From positions 1 to 62,083 of IMG/VR virus record IMGVR_UViG_3300034198_027699: a stretch of 62,083 bases of DNA. One strand, 5' to 3'. Position 1 is the stretch's first letter, and the number at the start of each line of letters is the position of its first letter. This document shows positions 46,430 to 59,558 of this stretch, one piece after another. The stretch is from a virus. The notes under the pieces were generated by a model. The model saw only the letters and a list, made by a program, of their open reading frames with translations. It was not told the origin of the DNA and searched no databases. The position numbers and the translations under genes were made by a program.

Positions 46430-47143
46430 ATGCAATCAAAAAATAATAAATTATGTAAAATTCATAATTTTATTAAAATTTTAAACGAAAGATCCGTTAA
46501 AGGAAAAATTCGTACAGAATATATTTGTACTTTTTGTATAAAAGATAAAAGAAAAAAATATAGAGAGAATAATAAAGAAAAAATATTAATTAGTGCAAAA
46601 ATTTATAGAGATAAAAATAGGGACAAGATTAATTTATCTAGAAGAGGTAAATATAAAGAAACTGCAAAAGCTTATAGAATAGCTAATAAAAAAGAAATAA
46701 TAAATCAAAAAAATATATATAAAAAAAATAAAAGAAATACCGATTTACAATTTAAAATTAGAGAAAATATTTCATCATCTATACGTTCAGCTATTAAAAA
46801 TTCAGGCTTAAAAAAACAATTTAATTCTTTTTTAAATTATGTTGATTGGGATATTATCCAACTTAAAGATCATTTAGAAAAACAATTTGAACCATGGATG
46901 AATTGGCAAAATTGGGGGACCTATAAGGCAGAAGAGTGGGATGATAATAATCAAATAACTTGGAAATGGCAAATTGATCATATTATTCCTCAATCAGATA
47001 TGATATATACCGACATGGCAGATGAAAATTTTAAAAAGTGCTGGTCATTGAGTAATCTAAGACCATACTCTGCAAAGCAAAATGCAATTGACGGTGGATC
47101 AAAAATTAGACATGAAAATACTAATAAAACAATTTCTTGGTAA
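46430..47143 (+). CDS. HNH homing endonuclease (about 237 aa)
   Basis: The C-terminal part holds WKWQIDHIIPQSDM followed by FKKCWSLSNLRPYSAKQNAI, the DH...N pattern of the HNH (beta-beta-alpha metal) nuclease fold. An N-terminal Cys/His set (LCKIH, then ICTFCIKDKRKKYR) is a likely zinc knuckle of the type found in phage HNH enzymes, and a very basic repeat region (residues 35-110) would bind DNA. I prefer the ATG at 46430 because the upstream in-frame ATG at 46406 lies inside the fibre gene. Its last 32 bases overlap the start of the glycosyltransferase gene in another frame. A free-standing mobile gene between the fibre and sugar genes is the natural reading. Confidence 0.85.
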   Translation: MQSKNNKLCKIHNFIKILNERSVKGKIRTEYICTFCIKDKRKKYRENNKEKILISAKIYRDKNRDKINLSRRGKYKETAKAYRIANKKEIINQKNIYKKNKRNTDLQFKIRENISSSIRSAIKNSGLKKQFNSFLNYVDWDIIQLKDHLEKQFEPWMNWQNWGTYKAEEWDDNNQITWKWQIDHIIPQSDMIYTDMADENFKKCWSLSNLRPYSAKQNAIDGGSKIRHENTNKTISW

Positions 47144-48236
47144 AAATCATAGCTGGTCTGTATGTGGTTGGGGAATAGCTAAATTTTTAATAAAAGATGG
47201 ACATGAGGTTCATTTATTTTCTACTGATGGTATTGAAAATTTACCTAATGATTTAAAGTCTAATTTGATCGGCTATACTGAAGAGCAAAAACCCGGAACA
47301 CTTTATGGAAAAGTGCCAGATCAAAATTATGATTGCCAAATTAGCTATACAGCTATGAAAAATTTTCCAATATATTTGCAAAATGGTAATAAAAACAGAT
47401 TTGGAATTTGGTGCTACGAGTGGGGCGGGAAAAACGTTTTACCTACAGGTTTTTCAAAAAACTATAAATACTGTGATAAAATTTTAGCACCATCTCAATT
47501 TGCCAAAAAAGTTTTTATTGATTCTGGTGTGCCTGAAAATTTTGTAGATGTAGTTTCTCATGGTATTTCCGAAGAGTATTGTGAAAATACAAAAATCGAT
47601 CTTCCTACTAAAAAAAGTTTTAAAATATTATCAAATATTGCACAAAATCACAAAAGAAAAAATATTTGGGGATTATTAGATGCTTATGGTAAAGCATTTT
47701 CAAATAAAGATGACGTGTGCTTAATACTTAAGGCAAAAGACAAGCCAATTTCTATGCAGTTTGATGTGTCTTTAAATGATTTAATAAAAAAGTTTAAAGA
47801 AAAATATTCAAATCATGCAGAAATAAAAGTGATGTCAAATTTTATACAAGATATTTCTTCTTTATATAGAAGCGTTGATGCAACTTTTACAATGTCTCAT
47901 TGTGAAGGCTTTTATTTTCCAGGTCTTGAATCAATTGTTTCTGGTAAAATGGCAATTGCCCCTAACTGGGGAGGTCAATTAGATTTTTTAAACGATTATA
48001 ATTCTTTATTAATTGATGGAAAAGAAGAAAGAGCAGATCCTAGTAGTATGTATTGGGAAAGCAAAAACAATGCAATATGGTTTAAGCCATCTGTAGATGA
48101 TGCTGTAGAAAAATTAAGACTAGCTAAAGAAAAGCATAATGAAATTAATTCTTTATTAGAGAATAAAAGACAAAATTATTATAATGAATATAGTTGGCAA
48201 TCAATAGTTAAAAAAATATTAGAGAGAACACAATGA
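47112..48236 (+). CDS. GT-B glycosyltransferase, GT1/GT4-like (374 aa)
   Basis: Start chosen at 47112 because MKILIKQFLGKNHSWSVCGW begins with the first Rossmann strand; an upstream ATG at 47082 adds ten non-family residues inside the HNH gene. The C-terminal half shows FKILSNIAQNHKRKNIWGLL (nucleotide-sugar domain start) and SHCEGFYFPGLESIVSGKMA, which contains the E-x7-E motif of retaining GT4-type enzymes, then APNWGGQLDFL. It would move a sugar from a nucleotide donor to an acceptor in the cytoplasm. The stop overlaps the next glycosyltransferase start by ATGA, so they form an operon. Donor and acceptor are unknown. Confidence 0.85.
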   Translation: MKILIKQFLGKNHSWSVCGWGIAKFLIKDGHEVHLFSTDGIENLPNDLKSNLIGYTEEQKPGTLYGKVPDQNYDCQISYTAMKNFPIYLQNGNKNRFGIWCYEWGGKNVLPTGFSKNYKYCDKILAPSQFAKKVFIDSGVPENFVDVVSHGISEEYCENTKIDLPTKKSFKILSNIAQNHKRKNIWGLLDAYGKAFSNKDDVCLILKAKDKPISMQFDVSLNDLIKKFKEKYSNHAEIKVMSNFIQDISSLYRSVDATFTMSHCEGFYFPGLESIVSGKMAIAPNWGGQLDFLNDYNSLLIDGKEERADPSSMYWESKNNAIWFKPSVDDAVEKLRLAKEKHNEINSLLENKRQNYYNEYSWQSIVKKILERTQ

Positions 48237-48934
48237 ATGAAAAAAAATTATCAATAGTTATTTTATGTTATAATAAATGGAATTTTACAAAAGCATGTTT
48301 AGAAGACTTATCTAAATTGCCATCTGATCATGAAATTATTGTAGTAGACAATGCATCTATAGATGAAACTCAAAATCAATTACAAAATAGCAAAGAAATA
48401 GTTTATCATAGAAATCAAGAAAATATGGGATTTGCTGCAGGAAGCAATATTGGATATGGATTGTCTACAGCTTCAAATGTTTTATTTTTGAATAATGATA
48501 TTAGAGTATCGTCTAATCATTCTGGATGGACAAAGCCAATAATAGAGTCATGCCCTAATGGTTTAGTAGGTCCTACTATGGGTCTTTTAGATAAAGATTT
48601 GAATTTTGTTAAAGAAGCTAATAGAGGTCTTTTGGGAAATACTTATATGAGTGGTTGGTGTTTAGGCGCATCTAAAGATATTTGGAATAAATTAGAAATT
48701 CCTAGAGAAACAAAATTTACAACTGATAGAGTATATCCACAAATATTTTCAGAAGAATATGGCACTGCATATTTTGAAGATACAGACCTATCATTTCGAG
48801 CAAGAAAATTAAATATAAAAATGCAAATTGTTAATATTCCTGTTGTACATTTTGGAAAACAAACCAGCAAACAATTAAATACTTATGCTTTGTACAATCA
48901 TGCTCGTAAAATTTTTATTAAAAATTGGTCTTGA
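48233..48934 (+). CDS. GT-A glycosyltransferase, family 2-like (233 aa)
   Basis: The N-terminus LSIVILCYNKWNFTKACLED and EIIVVDNASIDETQNQL is the canonical GT2 nucleotide-binding start. LFLNNDIR (about residues 83-90) replaces the DxD metal motif with the NND form common in rhamnosyl- and related transferases. MSGWCLGASKDIW and FEDTDLSFRARK are the acceptor-side and catalytic-base (ED) elements. At 233 residues it is a compact single domain without membrane anchor. The gene overlaps the GT-B gene by four bases (ATGA), giving coupled translation. Confidence 0.87.
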   Translation: MNEKKLSIVILCYNKWNFTKACLEDLSKLPSDHEIIVVDNASIDETQNQLQNSKEIVYHRNQENMGFAAGSNIGYGLSTASNVLFLNNDIRVSSNHSGWTKPIIESCPNGLVGPTMGLLDKDLNFVKEANRGLLGNTYMSGWCLGASKDIWNKLEIPRETKFTTDRVYPQIFSEEYGTAYFEDTDLSFRARKLNIKMQIVNIPVVHFGKQTSKQLNTYALYNHARKIFIKNWS

Positions 48935-48979: not shown

Positions 48980-50002
48980 ATGACATTATCAGATTCTACT
49001 AAAGTAGTTTTACTAAGAGTTGGAATTATACTTTGTATAATTACTATATTTGGATTATTAGGATTTATTATTTTTAATCAAATTGAAACTAATAAAAGAC
49101 AAGTAGCTATTGAATCACAAATAGTAAAACAAAAAGAGCTGCTAGATGGAATTGTAAGAAGTCAAAATGAATTCACCTCTAAAAAAGATTTAGAAGAATT
49201 TATTAAAGATAATAATATAAATTTAAAAGCAATTAAAGAAGACTTGTCAAAATTAAAAGGCGACGTATATGCAATTAATATCGCTATAATTGGCAGCTTA
49301 GGTCAAAAAGGTACTAATATACCAACTTCTAATACAGGTCCTAAAAATCCGGATCCTATACCTAAACCTAAATGTCCAGATGGTACAGTTTGTCCCAACA
49401 TAGATCCTTTTGGTTATTTAGCACAACAGCAAAATTTAGATCTTGATGAAGACTTTGGCACCACTAAAGTTCCAATTGGTAGCGTTGGATTTAGTGCATG
49501 GAAAGACAAACCATGGAGTATTGATATTAAACCAAGAGAATATAATATTGCTACAGTTGTAGGCAAAGACGAAAATCAAAGAAGTTATTTTTACAATAAA
49601 GTTACAGTTAATGTAGATGGTAAGCCTCATGATTTGCCTATTAAATCTGCTACAACTAAAGAAGAGTATCCTGAAGATAAATGGAATTTTTGGAATCCTA
49701 GATTATTTGTAGGTGTAGATGGAGGTGTAGGAGTAAATCCTGTAGAAGGTAAATTTACACCATCTGTTAATTTAGGAATTATGAGTTACGGGAAATATTC
49801 AAATCAACCAGATTTTTCAGTTTTAGAAGTTGGTGCAGGATTTGATGCAATAAGTAAAAAACCGCAGTTAATTTTAACGCCTGCGGCTTATAATGTAGGC
49901 AAGCATATTCCTCTTATGAATAATATGTATGTAGGACCTTCTGTTCAAGTTGGTACAGATGCAAATGTTTCAGTTATGCTTGGAGTTAGGGTAGGTCTTT
50001 GA
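48980..50002 (+). CDS. Membrane-anchored coiled-coil protein with beta-rich C-terminus (340 aa)
   Basis: Residues 9-32 form one strong membrane helix (VVLLRVGIILCIITIFGLLG), with the short N-terminus likely in the cytoplasm. Residues 35-95 are a Lys/Glu/Gln coiled coil, 105-135 a Pro-rich linker containing CPDGTVCP, and 210-340 a Gly-rich beta domain (FVGVDGGVGVNPVEGKFTPS, ending VSVMLGVRVGL) resembling strands of an outer-membrane barrel. The layout (inner-membrane anchor, periplasmic coiled coil, outer beta part) fits something that spans a Gram-negative envelope, such as a spanin-like or surface-modification protein. It sits inside the sugar cassette and has a good GAGG site. Not recognised as a known family. 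Confidence 0.55.
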   Translation: MTLSDSTKVVLLRVGIILCIITIFGLLGFIIFNQIETNKRQVAIESQIVKQKELLDGIVRSQNEFTSKKDLEEFIKDNNINLKAIKEDLSKLKGDVYAINIAIIGSLGQKGTNIPTSNTGPKNPDPIPKPKCPDGTVCPNIDPFGYLAQQQNLDLDEDFGTTKVPIGSVGFSAWKDKPWSIDIKPREYNIATVVGKDENQRSYFYNKVTVNVDGKPHDLPIKSATTKEEYPEDKWNFWNPRLFVGVDGGVGVNPVEGKFTPSVNLGIMSYGKYSNQPDFSVLEVGAGFDAISKKPQLILTPAAYNVGKHIPLMNNMYVGPSVQVGTDANVSVMLGVRVGL

Positions 50003-50805
50003 TAAATAGTAAGCTACATATAATTACTTTAAATTGGAATGGTGAAGATAAATTAAAACACCTAGCTCCAAGCCTAGTTAATTCTCTAAATGATATTGAT
50101 TATAATTGGCTAATTAAAGATAATGCATCCACAGATAACTCTATTGATTATTTGAAATCATTAAATAATAAAAACATAGAGATTATTTCTTATAAAGATA
50201 ATTTGCAAAATTTTTCTCAGGGATGTAATTATATATTTAATATAGCTAATCCAAAACCAAATGATTTAATCCTTTTATTAAATAACGATATCATTTTTAA
50301 TGATAAAAATTCAATTAAAAAAATGATTTCCTTATTAAAAGAAGATGTAGGAATTGTAGGTGCTAAATTACTATTTAATAATACAAAAAAAATACAGCAT
50401 GCGGGTGTAGTTTTTCATAATAAACATAAACTTCCTCATCATTTTAGAATAAATGAAATGGATGATTTAAATTCTTCAAAAAACAGATATTTTCAAGCAG
50501 TAACAGGAGCTTGTTTATTAACTAAAGCAGAATATTATGCTTTATCTGATAAAATGGATGAAAAATACCATTGGGCATTTGAAGACATAGACTTATGTTT
50601 AAAAATAAACAAATTTTTAAATAAAAAAATAATATATTGTGGAGACACAAATATTTTTCATGAAGAAAGTGCTACACTTAAAAAAAATCCAGTGAAAAAT
50701 CTTTTCATGCAACATAATATTAATTATTTTTTTAATAAATGGACCGCTCGATATATAGTTGATCACGATACATATTTGAATAATAAAAATTATAATTTGA
50801 TTTAA
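49999..50805 (+). CDS. GT-A glycosyltransferase, family 2-like, TTG start (268 aa)
   Basis: LHIITLNWNGEDKLKHLAPS and WLIKDNASTDNSIDYLKSL form the GT2 donor-binding start; ILLLNNDIIF is the NND metal motif; IVGAKLLF, IQHAGVVFH and AVTGACLLTK are the family's later strands; HWAFEDIDLCLKINK holds the catalytic ED. The usual ATG is missing: the family match begins right after TTG at 49999, which overlaps the preceding TGA, with GTAGG just upstream, so a TTG start with coupling is likely. It resembles rhamnosyltransferase-type GT2 enzymes, which fits the neighbouring RmlB-like gene. Confidence 0.85.
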   Translation: MINSKLHIITLNWNGEDKLKHLAPSLVNSLNDIDYNWLIKDNASTDNSIDYLKSLNNKNIEIISYKDNLQNFSQGCNYIFNIANPKPNDLILLLNNDIIFNDKNSIKKMISLLKEDVGIVGAKLLFNNTKKIQHAGVVFHNKHKLPHHFRINEMDDLNSSKNRYFQAVTGACLLTKAEYYALSDKMDEKYHWAFEDIDLCLKINKFLNKKIIYCGDTNIFHEESATLKKNPVKNLFMQHNINYFFNKWTARYIVDHDTYLNNKNYNLI

Positions 50806-50809
50806 ATTT

Positions 50810-51769
50810 ATGGACAAGAAAAAAATTTTAGTAACAGGAAGTTGTGGTTTTATTTTCGGCAACTTTGTAAGAAAGGCTGTCTATGATAAGCAGCCATATA
50901 GACTAATTAGCTTGGATAGAGTTAGTTTGAATTCAATAAATTCAATGTATTGGAATAAAAATCATACGTTTCATATTGCTGATATAAGAGATCAGCACGT
51001 AATTGATACAATTTTCCAATTTGAAAAGCCAGATATTGTAGTTCATGGTGCTGCAGAATCATTTGTTGATAATTCTCTAAAAGATCCCAATTCATTTGTA
51101 ACATCAAACATATTAGGAACTCAAGTAATTATTAATGCTTGTATAAAAAGTAAAGTTGAAAAATTAATCTATATTTCAACTGATGAAGTTTATGGTCAGT
51201 TAACTAGTGAATCTGATCCTTCCTGGAAAGAAGATGCCCCACTTAATCCTCGTAATCCTTATTCTGCATCAAAAGCAGCTGGAGAATTATTAGTAAAATC
51301 TGCATATGAATCTTTTGGATTAAAATACAATATTACAAGAAGTTCAAATAACTATGGACCCAGACAATATGCAGAAAAGCTATTGCCAAAAACTATTAAA
51401 TGTATATTAGAAAATAAGCCAATACCAATATATGGTCAAGGTTTGCAAATTCGTGACTGGACTCATGTATATGATAATTGTTCAGCATTATTTAAAATAA
51501 TAAATTCTGGAAAAGATAATGAGATATATAATATTTCTGCAAATCAAGAATTTACTAATATAGAAGTTATTCATGAAATTTGTAATGTTATGAATAAAGG
51601 TCATGAATTAATTTCATTTATTGAAGATCCAAGAAAATCTCATGATTTTAGATATTCAGTAGATATTTCTAAAATAAAAGAACTAGGCTGGAAACCAACT
51701 ACAAAATTTAAAGATGGAATAGTTGATACAGTAAACTGGTATGATAATAATCAATGGTTTTTAAAATAA
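50810..51769 (+). CDS. rmlB: RmlB-like dTDP-glucose 4,6-dehydratase / NDP-sugar SDR (319 aa)
   Basis: An extended short-chain dehydrogenase. The NAD loop ILVTGSCGFIFG is a variant of TGGAGFIG in which the third glycine is Phe with a Gly one place later. IYISTDEVYG gives the Thr-Asp-Glu signature specific to 4,6-dehydratases, and NPYSASKAAGELLVKS has the YxxxK catalytic pair. SSNNYGPRQYAEKLLPKTI and RDWTHVYDNCSAL are further RmlB hallmarks. It would convert dTDP-glucose to the 4-keto-6-deoxy sugar, the precursor of rhamnose and related sugars; no rmlA, rmlC or rmlD is present, so later steps would use host enzymes. It starts 4 bases after the glycosyltransferase. Another NDP-sugar substrate is possible. 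Confidence 0.85.
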   Translation: MDKKKILVTGSCGFIFGNFVRKAVYDKQPYRLISLDRVSLNSINSMYWNKNHTFHIADIRDQHVIDTIFQFEKPDIVVHGAAESFVDNSLKDPNSFVTSNILGTQVIINACIKSKVEKLIYISTDEVYGQLTSESDPSWKEDAPLNPRNPYSASKAAGELLVKSAYESFGLKYNITRSSNNYGPRQYAEKLLPKTIKCILENKPIPIYGQGLQIRDWTHVYDNCSALFKIINSGKDNEIYNISANQEFTNIEVIHEICNVMNKGHELISFIEDPRKSHDFRYSVDISKIKELGWKPTTKFKDGIVDTVNWYDNNQWFLK

Positions 51770-51785
51770 TATAGGAGATAATTAA

Positions 51786-53150
51786 ATGTCAGCCACATCC
51801 GTAACAGAAGAAGATGCCGCAGAGCAAATTGTAGATAATTTATCAAATGAAAAATCAGAAGCAAATACATCTGAAGATGTAGATTTGTCTAAATTAGCAG
51901 CTTTAAAAGCAAAAAGTCAAGCAAAACAACAGGAGACAAAAATGGCAGCCAAGATAGTCGCAACAAAAGATAGAAGCCTAGCACTAGGTGTTTTAGGATC
52001 AGGACAAGCGGGCTCAAGAATAGCAGAAGCTTTTTTTAAATTAGGTTATCCTACATGTGTAGTTAATACAGCATTACAAGATTTAAAATTTATTGATGTT
52101 CCAGATTCAAATAAACTTCTTTTAGAATACGGTCTTGGAGGTGCAGCTAAAGAAATAGAAATTGGTAAAGCTGCAGCAGAGTCTCATAAAGGCGAAATTC
52201 TACAATTAGTAAATGATAAGTTGGCTTCAGCGCAAGTACACTTACTATGTTTAAGCTTAGGTGGCGGTTCAGGTGCAGGTTCATGTGAAACTTTAGTAGA
52301 CTTGCTAGCAGATACAGGAAAGCCTCTAGTAGTTATTACTGTGCTTCCAATGGATACAGAAGATGCACAGACAAAGGCTAATGCATTGGAAACACTATCT
52401 AAGTTAGCGAAGCTTACTCAAACTAGAAGAGTAAATAACTTAATTGTTGTTGATAACGCTAAGATTGAATCTATTTATCAAGATGTAAGTCAAGTTGAAT
52501 TCTACAATGTTGCTAATAAGGCAATTGTAGATCCAATCGATGTATTCAACACACTTTCATCAATGCCTTCTTCAGTAAAAGGCTTAGACCCAATGGAATT
52601 TGGAAAGCTCTTCACTGATGGTGAAGGTTTAACAGTATATGGCGAATTAACTGTAGATAATTTTGCTGAAGATACTGCAATAGCTGAAGCTGTAGTAAAT
52701 AATCTTAATGGAAATCTTTTGGCTGGCGGCTTTGATTTGAAACAATCAAAGTATGTAGGTATTATTATTGCCGCTAATAAAGAAGTTTGGGCAAAGATTC
52801 CAAGCTCTAGCATAACTTATGCAATGGCAATGGTAAATGATCAATGTGGAACTCCAAGAGGAGTATTTAAGGGAATTTATACAGTAGATATGCCAGAGCC
52901 AGTTGTAAAAGTTTATTCTATGTTTACTGGTCTCGGTTTGCCAGAGTCTCGTGTCACTCAATTGAAGAAAGATGCGCAAGAGCATATGCAAACTGTAAAA
53001 GGCAAAGATGAACAAAGAAATCTTAATCTACAATTAGATACAGGCACTAATGAAACTGTATCTGCTGCTCAAAAAATTAAAGAGAAGATTTCACAAAAGT
53101 CTTCTGCATTTGGCAAATTAGTTGGTGGAGTTGTAGATCGAAGAAAGTAA
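51786..53150 (+). CDS. FtsZ/tubulin-like GTPase (454 aa)
   Basis: The core starts near residue 66 with GVLGSGQAGSRIAEAF (68-83), the T1 nucleotide loop. LSLGGGSGAGSCETLVDLL holds the glycine-rich T4 signature (GGGSGAGS, 159-166), a variant of GGGTGTG/S. The T7 synergy loop appears as GLDPMEF (266-272), with acidic residues D268 and E271 at the places that trigger GTP hydrolysis in the next subunit. An N-terminal extension of about 60 polar, Ala/Glu-rich residues and a C-terminal charged tail (AQKIKEKISQKSS...VVDRRK) flank it. It could form filaments that position or segregate phage DNA, as PhuZ and TubZ do. AGGAG precedes the start. The family is clear; cellular role is inferred. Confidence 0.87.
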   Translation: MSATSVTEEDAAEQIVDNLSNEKSEANTSEDVDLSKLAALKAKSQAKQQETKMAAKIVATKDRSLALGVLGSGQAGSRIAEAFFKLGYPTCVVNTALQDLKFIDVPDSNKLLLEYGLGGAAKEIEIGKAAAESHKGEILQLVNDKLASAQVHLLCLSLGGGSGAGSCETLVDLLADTGKPLVVITVLPMDTEDAQTKANALETLSKLAKLTQTRRVNNLIVVDNAKIESIYQDVSQVEFYNVANKAIVDPIDVFNTLSSMPSSVKGLDPMEFGKLFTDGEGLTVYGELTVDNFAEDTAIAEAVVNNLNGNLLAGGFDLKQSKYVGIIIAANKEVWAKIPSSSITYAMAMVNDQCGTPRGVFKGIYTVDMPEPVVKVYSMFTGLGLPESRVTQLKKDAQEHMQTVKGKDEQRNLNLQLDTGTNETVSAAQKIKEKISQKSSAFGKLVGGVVDRRK

Positions 53151-53175
53151 TAAATATTAAATTATCTGTAAATAG

Positions 53176-53218
53176 TAATGCCGGATATATATACTTTAAG
53201 TATGTACTTCCGGCATTA
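53176..53218 (+). terminator. Extended hairpin after the tubulin-like gene
   Basis: Perfect 10-bp arms TAATGCCGGA (53176-53185) and TCCGGCATTA (53209-53218), with an inner self-complementary ATACTTTAAGTAT at 53191-53203. It lies 26 bases after the stop codon. There is no long T run afterwards, so it may be a weak terminator, an mRNA 3'-end stabiliser or a processing site. Confidence 0.6.
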
Positions 53219-53254
53219 TTATGAGATATGTATGAAAAATCAATATATATGTAA

Positions 53255-53284: not shown

Positions 53285-54739
53285 ATGAATAAAATAGTTA
53301 TAATAAATAACAAAAAGTGTCAAATATTTTTAGAAGACCAAGCAGAATTACAAAAATTAAGAAAATTTTTATCATTTAAAGCAACAGGGGTTGAATATAC
53401 CCCAGCATATAAAAATGGATGGAATGGAATTACTTATCTTTTAACTAAGTCAAATAAATTTGATTTAGGTCTTCTAAATAAAGTAAAAGACTTTTTACAA
53501 CAAGAAAAAATAAATTTTACATTAGAAGATAATAGGCTACAAAAAACTATTAATCTTCCAATTGATATTTCAAAAAGATTAGAAGAAATAAATATGATCC
53601 CAAGAGATCATCAATTAAGAATATTAGATTGTGTAGATAAATTTGATAAAGGTATTGTAAGAGCAGCTACTGGTGCAGGCAAAACTCTTGCAACTGCATT
53701 GATAACTGCAAAATTAAATAAGCCAACAATAATATATGTTATTGGGCTAGACTTACTAGATCAGTTTCATAAATTATTTAGTAAAATTTTTGATGAAAAA
53801 ATTGGATGGATTGGAAATGGAATTTGCGATCCTCAAAGAATCACTATTGCTTCTATCTGGACCATTGGTAAAGCACTAAATGTAGAGTCTATATTAGATG
53901 ATGAGGACGATTCACAAGAAAAAGATGAACCTCAAAATCATGAAAAAATTATAAAATGTCTATCTCAAGCAAAGCTTCATATTTTTGACGAAAGTCATAT
54001 AGTAACCTGCTCAACTATATTGGAAATATATAAACACATAGATCCTGAATCTGTTTATGGGTTTTCTGGAACGCCTTTCAGAGATGACAATTCAGATTTA
54101 TTAATAAATGGAATTCTTGGAGAGCAAATTGTAAATGTTTCAGCCTCTGAGCTAATAAGTAAGCAGTTATTAGCCATGCCTATAATAAAGTTTTATTCAG
54201 TTCCTAAAAAACATGGATTAGGAATGCAATATCAATCTGTATATAAAGATTATATTGTGGAAAATGTTGAAAGAAATAACATGATTATTAATGTTATTAA
54301 AGAGATGCTTGAAAAAAAATATACTCCATTAGTGTTATTTAAGCAAATAAAACATGGAAATATTATTAGTGAACTTTTATCAGAAAATGGAGTTAAATTT
54401 GAAATGCTTTATGGAAATGACTCTTTAGAAAGAAGAGCTTCTGTAAAACAAATGTTAATTAATAAAGAAATAAATGTTATTTTAGCATCAACAATATTTG
54501 ATTTAGGTGTAGATATTCCAGAATTAAATGCGCTTGTTTTATGTGGTGGAGGCAAAAGCAGTATTAGATGCCTTCAAAGAATTGGAAGAGTTATTAGATT
54601 GCATAAAAATAAAAAATATGCAGCAGTTGCTGATTTTTATGATCAAGCCAGATTTTTAAAACAACATTCTTTAAAAAGATTTGAAGTTTATTCTTCAGAA
54701 GATGGATTTAAAGTTATTAAATGCAAAGAAATGAAATAA
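53285..54739 (+). CDS. uvsW: UvsW-like superfamily 2 DNA helicase (484 aa)
   Basis: RAATGAGKTLATALI (Walker A, K133), FDESHIV (motif II, D235-E-S-H238), FSGTPFRDD (motif III) and LQRIGRVIRLH (motif VI) identify an SF2 helicase. The N-terminal 95 residues (TPAYKNGWNGITYLL, then FDLGLLNKVKDFL) correspond to the small substrate-binding domain of T4 UvsW. UvsW unwinds branched DNA and R-loops, moving T4 replication from origin-primed to recombination-primed. The gene has the strongest Shine-Dalgarno in the region (GGGGAGG), apparently able to be masked by an upstream CTCCTC. It opens the replication block. Confidence 0.85.
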   Translation: MNKIVIINNKKCQIFLEDQAELQKLRKFLSFKATGVEYTPAYKNGWNGITYLLTKSNKFDLGLLNKVKDFLQQEKINFTLEDNRLQKTINLPIDISKRLEEINMIPRDHQLRILDCVDKFDKGIVRAATGAGKTLATALITAKLNKPTIIYVIGLDLLDQFHKLFSKIFDEKIGWIGNGICDPQRITIASIWTIGKALNVESILDDEDDSQEKDEPQNHEKIIKCLSQAKLHIFDESHIVTCSTILEIYKHIDPESVYGFSGTPFRDDNSDLLINGILGEQIVNVSASELISKQLLAMPIIKFYSVPKKHGLGMQYQSVYKDYIVENVERNNMIINVIKEMLEKKYTPLVLFKQIKHGNIISELLSENGVKFEMLYGNDSLERRASVKQMLINKEINVILASTIFDLGVDIPELNALVLCGGGKSSIRCLQRIGRVIRLHKNKKYAAVADFYDQARFLKQHSLKRFEVYSSEDGFKVIKCKEMK

Positions 54740-55400: not shown

Positions 55401-55792
55401 ATGATTATATTAATAAACACGTTAAATTATTATTAAATAATAATATTATAATTGAAGGCACGGTAAAGTCTTGGTCTTTTTCTACTGTAGAAATTCTATC
55501 ACTAGATAATAAAAGCACTTCTATTATTACTCACCCAAATGAAGATATAAGAGTAATTAAAATTGTACATCAAGAAAAAAATATAATTGAAGAAAAAACT
55601 GCTACAGAACAAGAATTTGATAGCGTTTCTAACGAGCCAGGATATGATGATTTAAAATTAAAAAAATTATCAGAGCTTAAAATAGAAATGATAAAGCAAG
55701 ATAAAGAAATTGTTGCTAGTCAACTAAAAAACCATCAGATAGGCGAATTAAAGAAAGTTAATTATGAATACCCAGGATTTTTTAAGAAGTAA
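55397..55792 (+). CDS. LSm/SH3-like small protein in the replication operon (131 aa)
   Basis: The N-terminal 55 residues, NKHVKLLLNNNIIIEGTVKS and SFSTVEILSLDNKSTSIITH, then EDIRVIKIV, follow the five-strand pattern of an Sm/LSm-type barrel (VxxxLxxNxxxxGxV core). The rest is a charged helix (DDLKLKKLSELKIEMIKQ) and a short end. Sm-like proteins bind RNA; in phage operons similar barrels may act as adaptors. The gene overlaps both neighbours (ATGA upstream, 29 bases with the loader downstream), so it is made with them. The fold call is from the hydrophobic pattern only. Confidence 0.55.
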   Translation: MNDYINKHVKLLLNNNIIIEGTVKSWSFSTVEILSLDNKSTSIITHPNEDIRVIKIVHQEKNIIEEKTATEQEFDSVSNEPGYDDLKLKKLSELKIEMIKQDKEIVASQLKNHQIGELKKVNYEYPGFFKK

Positions 55793-56471
55793 GGCTTTAA
55801 ATAATATTCCTACAAGAAAACTACAAGATATAGTTTTGTCAATAGAGTCATCTAATGAAGAGTTAAATAAAAAGAACATTAAATTAATAGCTATTAATCG
55901 TTATGCTGAAAGTAATATTCCTATTGAATATTGGAATTTAAAGATGGAAAAAGATTTTCATGGAAATGAAAATCTATTAAATAAGTATATGGAATATACT
56001 TCTGATTTAAAATCATCATATTTAAATGGCTCATCTATATGTTTTGCAGGTGGACATGGTTTAGGTAAAACATTTACTATTACATCTATTCTTAAAAAAG
56101 CAAGTAATAAAGGATTTTCTTGCCTATATACTACTTTAAGTGATATTGTAAATGTATTAACCTCTGCTAGTGCTGAAGATAAGTTTCTATCAAGAAGAGA
56201 GTTAACTTTAGTAGACTTTTTAGCTATTGATGAGTTTGATTCTAGGTTTATGCAAAATGATAATGCGGCAGATCTTTATGCTAGAACACTAGAAAATATT
56301 TTTAGAACTAGAAGTCAAAATAAATTGCCAACATTAATGTGTACAAATTCTCCTAATGTTGTAGAAAGTTTTAATGGACCTCTAAAGGCAAGTATTGATT
56401 CTTTAATGAAAGGATACTTGAAAGTATTTCCTGTTTTTGGTGAAGATTATAGAAAGAAGAAAGCACAATGA
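55764..56471 (+). CDS. DnaC/IstB-like AAA+ helicase loader (235 aa)
   Basis: CFAGGHGLGKTFTITSIL is the Walker A loop (about residues 92-109), VDFLAIDEFDSRFM the Walker B (about 150-163), and LPTLMCTNSPNVVESF holds the sensor-1 Asn, in the order of DnaC/DnaI/IstB ATPases. The N-terminal 70 residues would bind the helicase. Such proteins open and load the hexameric helicase on single-stranded DNA. The gene overlaps the LSm-like gene by 29 bases and the helicase by four (ATGA). T4 uses an unrelated loader (gp59), so this is a bacterial-type module. IstB-like transposition ATPase is less likely in this context. Confidence 0.85.
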   Translation: MNTQDFLRSKALNNIPTRKLQDIVLSIESSNEELNKKNIKLIAINRYAESNIPIEYWNLKMEKDFHGNENLLNKYMEYTSDLKSSYLNGSSICFAGGHGLGKTFTITSILKKASNKGFSCLYTTLSDIVNVLTSASAEDKFLSRRELTLVDFLAIDEFDSRFMQNDNAADLYARTLENIFRTRSQNKLPTLMCTNSPNVVESFNGPLKASIDSLMKGYLKVFPVFGEDYRKKKAQ

Positions 56472-57877
56472 GTTATTCAAATTTAGATTTATCGGTATTA
56501 AAAGTATTAGTAACTAATAAAAGTTATGCTATAGATTTTGTTAATGATTGTGACTCTAAACTATTTTCTCCCGAAGTTTGGAGTTTTGCAAATTTAGTAA
56601 TAAACTATATAAAATCTTATAAAGAGATACCAACTCTTAGAGTATTGACAGAAAAATTATCTAAAGGCAATAATGAAAAACTAATCGAAAATACATCTAA
56701 AATTTGGGAAGCTATATCTAATTTTGAATATGATGAAAAAGAATATAAACATGATTTAGAAAAAATCAAAAAGAGATTTGCAGAAAAGCAAATTACTTCA
56801 GTAAAAGATGCGCTTATAAAATTAGAGCCAGGTTTAATAGATATTCCAAAAACTGTTGGAGAAATGCAGAAGACGATTCAAACAATAAAAAGTTTGAATC
56901 AACCAAAAGCATATGAAAGTAAAAATATTAAAGAGTTTTTGCCATTTTTCGTTGAAAAGTTTAATTTAAAAAAACAAAATCCAGATTTAGAAGTAGGCGT
57001 AAAAACAAAATATTCTTTTTTTGATTTTGCTACCAATGGAGTTAAACCTGCAGACTTCGTTTTGATTGCAGGTGAATCAGGTTTCGGTAAAAGTTTATTT
57101 TTGAATAATATTGCAATCCAAACTTGGATGCAAGATAATAAAATAACTCAAAAAGATTCATTTACAGAAGGTAAAAATATTATTTATTTTAGCTTGGAAA
57201 TGCCCTATGAAGATTGTTTTAATAGATTAATTAGTAGACTATCTGGGGTTCCAGCTAGAAATATTGAAAATGCAAAAATATCTAAAGAAGATTTTGCCAA
57301 GATTAAACAAGCTTTAGATTTTATTAATAACTATCCATATACTTTTAAAATTGTAGATATTGCCGATGCTTCAGCAAATGATCTAGAAGCTATTTTAGCA
57401 AATAGTGAAGAAAAATTTGATGTAGTATTTGTAGACTACTTGGGCATTATGAATACAAATGAAAAATCTGATGAGGCTGACTGGCTAAAGCAAGGTCTTA
57501 TAGCGTATGAAGTTAGAGCAATTGCTCGTAAGTATAAGCTACCTATTTTCTCTGCTGTACAATTAAATAGAAAATCTCAATCTAAAGACTCATCAGAAAA
57601 TATTGGACTTTCTAGATTAGCTAGATCTAGCACTATTGCAACACATGCAACGCATGTTATTCAGATTGAAAATAGACCACAAGAAGAAATGCATCCAGAT
57701 TTTGTATGGCACATAATTAAAAATCGTAAAGGTCCCAAAGGCAAAGGTGTTTTATATAAAAATCTAGCATGCGCCACTCTAATAGATAAGCCAATGGAAG
57801 TTGAAGAACAAGATTCAAGATTTACAAATTATGATATGGAAGATATCTCTGAAGAAATAGAGGACCTAGAAATTTAA
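56468..57877 (+). CDS. DnaB-like replicative DNA helicase (469 aa)
   Basis: A RecA-fold hexameric helicase. LIAGESGFGKSLFLNNIA is Walker A (residues about 199-216), IIYFSLEMPYEDCFNRLISR the DnaB motif following it, FDVVFVDYLGIMNT Walker B (about 317-330), and FSAVQLNRKS the Gln-bearing sensor motif. LARSSTIATHATHVIQIENR and IIKNRKGPKGKG give the end-of-domain arginine elements. The N-terminal 150 residues are a helical primase/loader-binding domain. It unwinds DNA 5' to 3' at the fork. The stop is close to the small-gene cluster. T4 gp41 is the same superfamily. Confidence 0.9.
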   Translation: MSYSNLDLSVLKVLVTNKSYAIDFVNDCDSKLFSPEVWSFANLVINYIKSYKEIPTLRVLTEKLSKGNNEKLIENTSKIWEAISNFEYDEKEYKHDLEKIKKRFAEKQITSVKDALIKLEPGLIDIPKTVGEMQKTIQTIKSLNQPKAYESKNIKEFLPFFVEKFNLKKQNPDLEVGVKTKYSFFDFATNGVKPADFVLIAGESGFGKSLFLNNIAIQTWMQDNKITQKDSFTEGKNIIYFSLEMPYEDCFNRLISRLSGVPARNIENAKISKEDFAKIKQALDFINNYPYTFKIVDIADASANDLEAILANSEEKFDVVFVDYLGIMNTNEKSDEADWLKQGLIAYEVRAIARKYKLPIFSAVQLNRKSQSKDSSENIGLSRLARSSTIATHATHVIQIENRPQEEMHPDFVWHIIKNRKGPKGKGVLYKNLACATLIDKPMEVEEQDSRFTNYDMEDISEEIEDLEI

Positions 57878-58928: not shown

Positions 58929-59558
58929 ATGTTAACAGAACAAGAAGCACAAGATCTCATGGCTAAATTAGTTGAGCTAAAATCTAAAGCAAAAGCATCA
59001 GACGATCCAAAAATTCGTCATGAATTATCAAAGCATGAACAAATTTGCATTAGTCAATTTAAATACCTAGTTACAATGAAAACTGGCAGATATAAAGCTT
59101 TTTCTAATTATGAAGATTTAAATCAAGAAGGTTTTGAAGCGCTTGTTAAAGCGATGAAAACATATAATCCTAAAAAAGGATCATTCTTTGCTTGGGCTCA
59201 TAATTATATAGGCACTAGAATATCTAGAAGTGCAAACTTACATACAACTATTCGTTATCCATTAAAGGTTGCAAAGGAAAATACGCCTCATAAAGAAGCT
59301 ATTATGCCTCTTATAATTGAAGAGAGATATTGTCCAGATAAAGAATTAGAAGATTATCAAACAGATAATGCAATAAAATTTGCAATTGAGCATTTGACAG
59401 AGCAACAAAAGCAAGTAATTAATTTAGCATACGGGCTTAATGGAGATAAACCAATTTCTATTAATAAAATATGCAAAAAATTAGGAATATCAAGATTAAA
59501 CTGTATTAAATTAATTAATACTGCACTTTCATCAATGAAAGAAAATATTAAAATATAA
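58929..59558 (+). CDS. Phage sigma factor, gp55/sigma70-like (209 aa)
   Basis: Residues about 60-100 (NYEDLNQEGFEALVKAMKTY, then GSFFAWAHNYIGTRISRSA) are sigma region 2, which binds the core polymerase clamp and melts the -10 element. Residues about 152-205 (LTEQQKQVINLAYGLNGDKP, then ISINKICKKLGISRLNCIKL) form a region 4-like helix-turn-helix. Region 1.1 and most of region 3 are absent, as in the 185-residue T4 late factor gp55. It would turn host RNA polymerase to phage late promoters. AAGAGG precedes the start. Region 4 is better preserved than in gp55, so a normal -35 contact is possible. Confidence 0.85.
   Translation: MLTEQEAQDLMAKLVELKSKAKASDDPKIRHELSKHEQICISQFKYLVTMKTGRYKAFSNYEDLNQEGFEALVKAMKTYNPKKGSFFAWAHNYIGTRISRSANLHTTIRYPLKVAKENTPHKEAIMPLIIEERYCPDKELEDYQTDNAIKFAIEHLTEQQKQVINLAYGLNGDKPISINKICKKLGISRLNCIKLINTALSSMKENIKI

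Follow-up and report, generated by a model that had tools for sequence, protein, structure and literature searches.

Why should a phage keep a tubulin of its own between its sugar genes and its replication genes, and what could such a protein do in an infected cell? The question is raised by a viral stretch of 62,083 nucleotides (record IMGVR_UViG_3300034198_027699, positions 1 to 62,083; hereafter the window), in which an open reading frame (ORF) of 454 amino acids at 51786..53150 encodes, by its Pfam matches and an AF2 model, a TubZ-like GTPase of the tubulin/FtsZ superfamily. We call it TUB; the genes and protein features of the window that are written below as start..end are on the plus strand. 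Phage tubulins are already known, namely PhuZ, the TubZ of phage c-st and the FtsZ-like gp138 of phage G, and beyond Chimalliviridae 'a handful of large phages' have been noted to carry one (PMC11835377). Moreover, a homologue of TUB is already deposited under the name 'FtsZ': A0A6J5RW92 (UniProt/BFVD, 'FtsZ Cell division GTPase', uncultured Caudovirales phage) is 72% identical over its full length and thus a member of the TUB family; the database gives it no more than a name, and we found no paper on it. Is TUB simply one more of these proteins, or does it stand apart from them?

The GTPase core and its two extensions

Judged by its sequence, TUB is a tubulin/FtsZ-superfamily GTPase with intact T1, T4 and T7 elements, far beyond what chance would give. 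Pfam assigns to it both Tubulin (PF00091, 56.9 bits against a cut-off of 33, E 4.4e-15) and TubZ-like_C (PF22453, 30.5 bits against a cut-off of 26), and a sequence search of solved structures places TubZ/RepX (4ei7, E 3.7e-14) at the top, with archaeal and bacterial FtsZ next. Two PHROG families match TUB. One is the PhuZ family phrog_4733, whose match is short and partial, over 95 of its 323 profile positions (E 2.7e-7); the other is phrog_17961, to which gp138 of phage G belongs by its own match. A sequence-only reading of this locus had picked out GSGQAGS, GGGSGAGS and GLDPMEF with D268 and E271 as the T1, T4 and T7 elements, and all of them are where it saw them: the T1 loop at residues 71-77 (51996..52016), the T4 signature at residues 159-166 (52260..52283) and the T7 region GLDPMEFG, which holds D268 and E271 as predicted catalytic acids, at residues 266-273 (52581..52604). 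Conservation was counted on 64 distinct TUB sequences, leaving out rows shorter than 420 aa and the intein-bearing loci L104 and L111; for these counts and for the alignments, fusion ORFs were trimmed to their last 475 residues. None of the 64 departs from G71, G73, G76, R78, N94/T95, G159-161, G163, D193, D223, N224 or D268, and every one has an acidic residue at 271 (50 E, 14 D). From what is known of the superfamily, we take the T1 and T4 glycines to contact the nucleotide, and N94/T95, D193, D223/N224 and D268 to have the contact roles that they have there. The G box, which had been thought altered, turned out to be ordinary: GGG is followed by S in 53 of the 64 relatives and by T in the other 11, and the alignment has S at this place in PhuZ as well.

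The same reading described one disordered extension of about 60 residues. There are in fact two, at residues 1-60 and at about 401-454, and both are outside the fold. AF2 predicts the structure with moderate confidence (mean pLDDT 73.4, pTM 0.70) and resolves neither of them, with pLDDT below 50 at residues 1-33, 44-59, 412-427 and 438-454. In the N-terminal extension, a conserved helical motif, LxxLKAK, stands at residues 34-48 (51885..51929; L37 in 95%, L40 in 98% and K43 in 88% of the 64 relatives) amid variable, acidic sequence, and the model has a helix at residues 34-53. The C-terminal extension is composed, by conservation and charge, of a linker (about 411-430) and a conserved basic tip (431-454, SxFGKL..GVVDRRK), together at 53016..53147. 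S440, D451 and R453 of the tip are each found in 64 of 64 relatives, and F442 in 62. The net charge of the last 24 residues is +5 in the TUB of the window and does not fall below +4 in any of the 108 locus rows, a set that counts repeated contigs; the PhuZ tail, in contrast, is acidic, and the same 24 residues give -1 in phiKZ, -4 in 201phi2-1 and -3 in RAY. The conserved C-terminal peptide of FtsZ is absent from TUB, and the alignment has a different basic motif in its place. In TubZ, the tip of the C-tail is the binding site of TubR/tubC and of TubY, and it also modulates disassembly (PMC5322520); in PhuZ, the acidic tail keeps adjacent subunits together (PMC3678025). By analogy, the tip of TUB may be a handle for a partner, for DNA or for a contact between subunits.

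Kinship with TubZ

To which of the known tubulins is TUB most closely related? In a tree of 52 rows, whose sampling contains no CetZ sequence, the 32 TUB representatives form one clade (99/94). Phylogeny had been named beforehand as a check, and in this tree TUB is outside both the 100/100 clade formed by the seven PhuZ rows and the FtsZ side (99/98), while TUB, TubZ and gp138 of phage G come to lie on one side (90/89). In a tree without PhuZ and two long rows, the TUB clade is recovered at 100/98 and its sister is phage G plus Pontibacillus (95/85), a placement flagged as a long-branch join. Approximately unbiased (AU) tests reject no sister relation tried (p 0.46 for TUB with PhuZ and p 0.19 for TUB with FtsZ).

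Profiles and folds point to TubZ. When the TUB profile is aligned with others by hhalign, TubZ scores 277 (E 2.7e-37), phage G plus Pontibacillus 240, FtsZ 135 and PhuZ 96. Pairwise identities are about 22-25% to five plasmid TubZ proteins, 22% to gp138 of phage G, about 20-22% over aligned core columns to three bacterial FtsZ proteins, and 16-19% to PhuZ. TubZ chains also lead the Foldseek list obtained with the TUB model, and among the VIA-align matches listed, Bacillus cereus TubZ (4ei7_B) has a Z of 39.4 over 344 residues, CetZ2 35.2 and FtsZ about 33. No PhuZ chain is among the 50 matches listed, from which nothing follows for PhuZ. The alignment has residues of TUB at the interdomain H6 region, where PhuZ is gapped, and the TUB model has a helix at 224-230; helix H6 is described as missing from PhuZ in an excerpt of PMC7950403. 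The profile comparison and the predicted fold thus both put TUB nearest to TubZ. We therefore read TUB as a distinct TubZ-type family, whose nearest relatives are plasmid TubZ and the 'FtsZ-like' protein of phage G, with the deepest sister left undecided by the AU tests. The claim that this cytoskeleton is outside the known groups survives in part: TUB has its own branch apart from PhuZ and FtsZ, but by profile score and fold it is near TubZ. Acquisition of a host FtsZ by the phage is ruled out by the tree and the profiles. Membership of TUB in PhuZ is ruled out by the separate PhuZ clade, although a shared phage ancestor is still compatible with the AU test.

With TubZ, as known from the structures of Bacillus thuringiensis, B. 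cereus and phage c-st, TUB shares the fold, the closest profile, the PF22453 domain, the D..E pair of T7 and a flexible C-terminal tail. It differs in its N-terminal extension with the conserved helix, in the strong conservation of its basic C-terminal tip, in having no detected TubR or iteron array, and in its carriers, which are jumbo phages without a detected integrase whereas TubZ is on plasmids of Bacillota. Gp138 of Bacillus phage G, annotated as 'putative FtsZ-like cell division protein', likewise comes from a jumbo phage and has a basic C-terminus, but it is without the N-terminal extension and has different gene neighbours. PhuZ of the Chimalliviridae is, like TUB, a phage-encoded GTPase of the tubulin superfamily in jumbo phages.

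A Pontibacillus plasmid of 898 kb carries, besides its own TubZ and FtsZ, an extra tubulin-like protein (L065:2998-4077), which groups with gp138 of phage G (97/98). This plasmid may contain phage-G-like DNA.

Neighbourhood and spread in large phages

TUB had been placed between a sugar cassette and a replication block, and this arrangement holds. On the upstream side are two glycosyltransferases, GTa and GTb (47082..48934; phrog_2170 and phrog_841), a conserved 340-aa protein with an N-terminal hydrophobic stretch, p340 (48980..50002), a GT2 glycosyltransferase (49999..50805, PF00535), and a nucleotide-sugar epimerase/dehydratase, EPI (50810..51769; PF16363, phrog_540), which ends 16 bp upstream of TUB. 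The cluster of p340 is present in 30 of 41 loci, and the protein has no Pfam family at E 0.01. Of the 41 loci of the first scan, 40 have a plus-strand gene upstream of TUB, and in 27 of these the closest such gene is EPI. Past the stop codon of TUB, a repeat scan finds an imperfect palindrome with 25-nt arms and a 1-nt loop (53172..53222), at which the terminator scan makes no call; the promoter scan is at chance level (17 against a mean of 16.4). There follow a UvsW-type helicase (53285..54739; PF21241 UvsW_N, phrog_16), two small genes, a DnaC-like helicase loader (55764..56471, phrog_50), a DnaB-like replicative helicase (56468..57877; PF03796, phrog_19) and a gp55-type sigma factor (58929..59558, phrog_351), and the small subunit of ribonucleotide reductase is also encoded in this downstream block. 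The start of the 131-aa gene before DnaC (window:55397-55792) resembles an Sm/Hfq-type fold by eye, and Pfam gives no such match. Many relatives have, in clusters 13 and 14 (e.g. L014:4435-5286) and again by eye, a GH25-type-lysozyme-like gene between TUB and UvsW and a formamidopyrimidine-DNA-glycosylase-like gene upstream of p340.

What kind of phage is this? The left part of the window has a tail sheath gene (11741..14488; phrog_279, E 4.6e-20) plus baseplate genes, so the contractile tail of the sequence-only reading is borne out, but its T4-like gene set is good only for UvsW, the gp55-type sigma factor and the baseplate wedge parts. The Gp23 major capsid protein was matched in 0 of 24 tubulin-bearing records (27 were examined, the other three being phiKZ, 201phi2-1 and phage G), and a repeat on the window record and two of the tubulin records gave 0 of 3 with T4 itself positive. 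Since Gp23 finds no match here while T4 rings, a T4-like character cannot be demonstrated for this contractile-tailed phage.

Among 50,697 phage records, a tblastn search with the TUB of the window found no match, and when a 40%-identical relative was the query, phage G alone was matched among phage isolates. Uncultured viral contigs are a richer source. A single TUB protein as query found 40 loci there, and an alignment search found 94 confirmed loci, of which 80 were kept; the relatives are 39-100% identical. At least 33 distinct TUB-bearing contigs, some of them near-copies, reach 200 kb, and the longest measures 480,838 bp. A search of genome contigs gave one TUB contig, in an Actinomycetota metagenome-assembled genome (MAG; L067), too little to name a host. 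Each tubulin record scanned has one PF00091 match (15/15, 9/9 and 5/5).

Does the whole phage group have TUB? To answer this, the loci must be collected by a gene independent of TUB; UvsW yielded only 9 loci, so DnaB was chosen as the anchor. The best 80 of 378 candidates, near-copies included, gave 77 DnaB loci, with a query alignment that was built from tubulin loci and is thereby biased towards the TUB clade. Nine of the 77 were set aside, L236-L241 as a 23%-identical outgroup and L191, L192 and L195 for too little upstream DNA. In this selection TUB is present in 66 of the 68 usable loci, in the flank in 64 and just outside it in two (L212 and L215), and the remaining two, L202 and L204, are near-identical fragments without TUB. 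In L163, UvsW comes straight after EPI, and TUB is absent between them and elsewhere on the 88-kb record. Because this locus lost the gene so cleanly, TUB must be dispensable in some lineage. Thus, TUB is near-universal in its phage group, yet not strictly essential.

TUB is also well kept in sequence. Measured as identity to the protein of the window, TUB exceeds UvsW in all 30 loci compared, DnaB in 22 of 22, DnaC in 20 of 24 and EPI in 26 of 32, which suggests the type of constraint expected of a self-assembling protein. Inteins favour the active sites of important proteins. In two contigs, of 361 kb (L104:4366-7134) and 354 kb (L111:4330-7131), the TUB ORF holds an intein with a LAGLIDADG-type homing domain, which interrupts the GTP-binding T1 loop at the junction of the positions that correspond to G76 and S77; because of this preference, we count these inteins in favour of TUB having an important active site. 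Another insert, which starts with C, ends with HN and is by sequence an intein, is in the Walker A motif of UvsW in L163 (L163:5315-8050), the same locus that lost TUB.

What might the proposed filament do?

The reading that we favour, with a little better than an even chance of being right, is that TUB forms a GTP-driven, TubZ-like filament which, in a lytic infection that involves neither a phage nucleus nor TubR/tubC, puts phage DNA or particles in position. GTP would sit in the T1-T6 pocket, and the T7 loop of the next subunit, with D268 and E271, would complete the active site, so that monomers might assemble head to tail, hydrolyse GTP and make the filament dynamic. The conserved N-terminal helix and the basic C-terminal tip would protrude from the core, likely as handles for cargo or a regulator, and the tip might touch DNA, a phage protein or the neighbouring subunit directly. 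While the phage grows lytically, such a filament would most likely position or move its replicating DNA, or its particles, through the cytoplasm. GTPase activity, polymerisation, cargo and timing are all what we infer here: polymerisation from superfamily knowledge and the intact interface residues, the cytoplasmic positioning role from the failure to detect chimallin, TubR or tubC, and the guess of cargo from kinship with TubZ, the neighbouring replication block and the basic tip. A wider and more tentative proposal, which we would hold back from calling likely, is that TUB is a third phage cytoskeleton: a TubZ-type tubulin without adaptors, belonging to the core genes of a large group of contractile jumbo phages that have no nucleus, in which the basic tip and the N-terminal helix couple GTP-driven filaments directly to DNA or particles. 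If this is true, TUB works in open cytoplasm and there does the job that PhuZ has at the phage nucleus and TubR/tubC on plasmids. As TUB is spread over many very large uncultured phages with no sign of a nucleus, its filament probably transports material of the phage within infected cells by some as yet undescribed means. In the open-licence PMC literature, with preprints and most subscription papers outside it, we found no description of the TUB family, its biochemistry or its imaging, and no account of a TubZ-type family that is near-universal in jumbo phages free of chimallin, has conserved tails of its own and comes without a detected TubR. A near-universal tubulin in large phages without detected chimallin makes the role of a phage spindle without a nucleus testable with one protein. 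For functional comparison, nature supplies within the group a TubZ-like protein that lacks TubR, a locus from which the gene was lost (L163) and fusions with a glycosyltransferase.

Could TUB instead be a type III partition motor, the phage being partly plasmid-like and TUB separating genome copies through a TubR and a tubC that have escaped recognition? TubZ is its nearest relative by profile and fold, and the TubZ of phage c-st is reported, in an excerpt of PMC7950403, to be the partition motor for its genome. Nevertheless, we consider this unlikely. In all six plasmid TubZ-type loci fetched, an ORF of 102-119 aa is directly upstream of the TubZ-like gene, whereas EPI occupies this place in the window, and the TubR profile made from those ORFs finds 6 of 6 training plasmids but 0 of 17 tubulin records, and nothing in phage G. 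As for tubC, 40 of 41 loci have no 9-mer repeated three times within 500 bp of TUB, a scan from which degenerate sites could escape, and the direct repeats near TUB in the window are families of two copies only, with nothing convincing as iterons. Integrase is found in 0 of 20 tubulin records, which argues against a plasmid-like phage and fits a lytic one. All absences, here and below, weigh lightly since the large records are contigs of unstated completeness. TubR evolves fast, and the TUB phages may have a divergent or distant copy. One candidate for TubR, the commonest small downstream gene (cluster 15, 8 of 41 loci), was rejected: it has a sub-threshold match to DUF6897 only, and by eye its sequence suggests a small beta-barrel rather than a winged helix. 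Another possibility is that TUB is a divergent PhuZ working for a nucleus whose shell protein is of an unrecognised kind, as the AU p of 0.46 for TUB with PhuZ and the partial match to phrog_4733 would allow. The chimallin (ChmA) profile phrog_4795, however, finds 0 of 36 tubulin records (0/15 and 0/21) while both phiKZ and 201phi2-1 are positive, PhuZ is the least similar of the four profiles, and the C-terminus of TUB is basic, not acidic, and we give this possibility little credence. Multi-subunit RNA polymerase (PF00623) was found in 0 of 16 tubulin records, but the same search missed phiKZ too.

TUB might also block division, by co-assembling with host FtsZ or poisoning it, so that division stops and the cell becomes larger; TUB and FtsZ are in the same superfamily, and phage inhibitors of FtsZ are common. 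We think this very improbable: TUB forms a clade of its own with catalytic acids intact in all 64 relatives, and a core identity to bacterial FtsZ of only about 20-22% makes co-assembly unlikely. A scaffold role is hinted at by the company that TUB constantly keeps with glycosyltransferases and the epimerase, together with five in-frame fusions: filaments, or units acting as GTP switches, would organise the adjoining glycosyltransferases for glycosylation of DNA or virions. The link to UvsW, DnaC and DnaB is equally constant, though, and the neighbouring sugar gene is an epimerase or a glycosyltransferase depending on the subgroup, so that no single sugar partner is kept; the scaffold thus seems to us a long shot. 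In the five loci with fusions (L132, L136, L137, L138 and L139), no stop codon separates TUB from the group-1 glycosyltransferase that precedes it in the same frame, and the joint ORFs have 700-807 aa; those of L136 and L137 are identical, and Pfam was run on the fusions of L136 and L138. In L038 and L040, the glycosyltransferase and TUB genes overlap by 13 and 23 bp, respectively.
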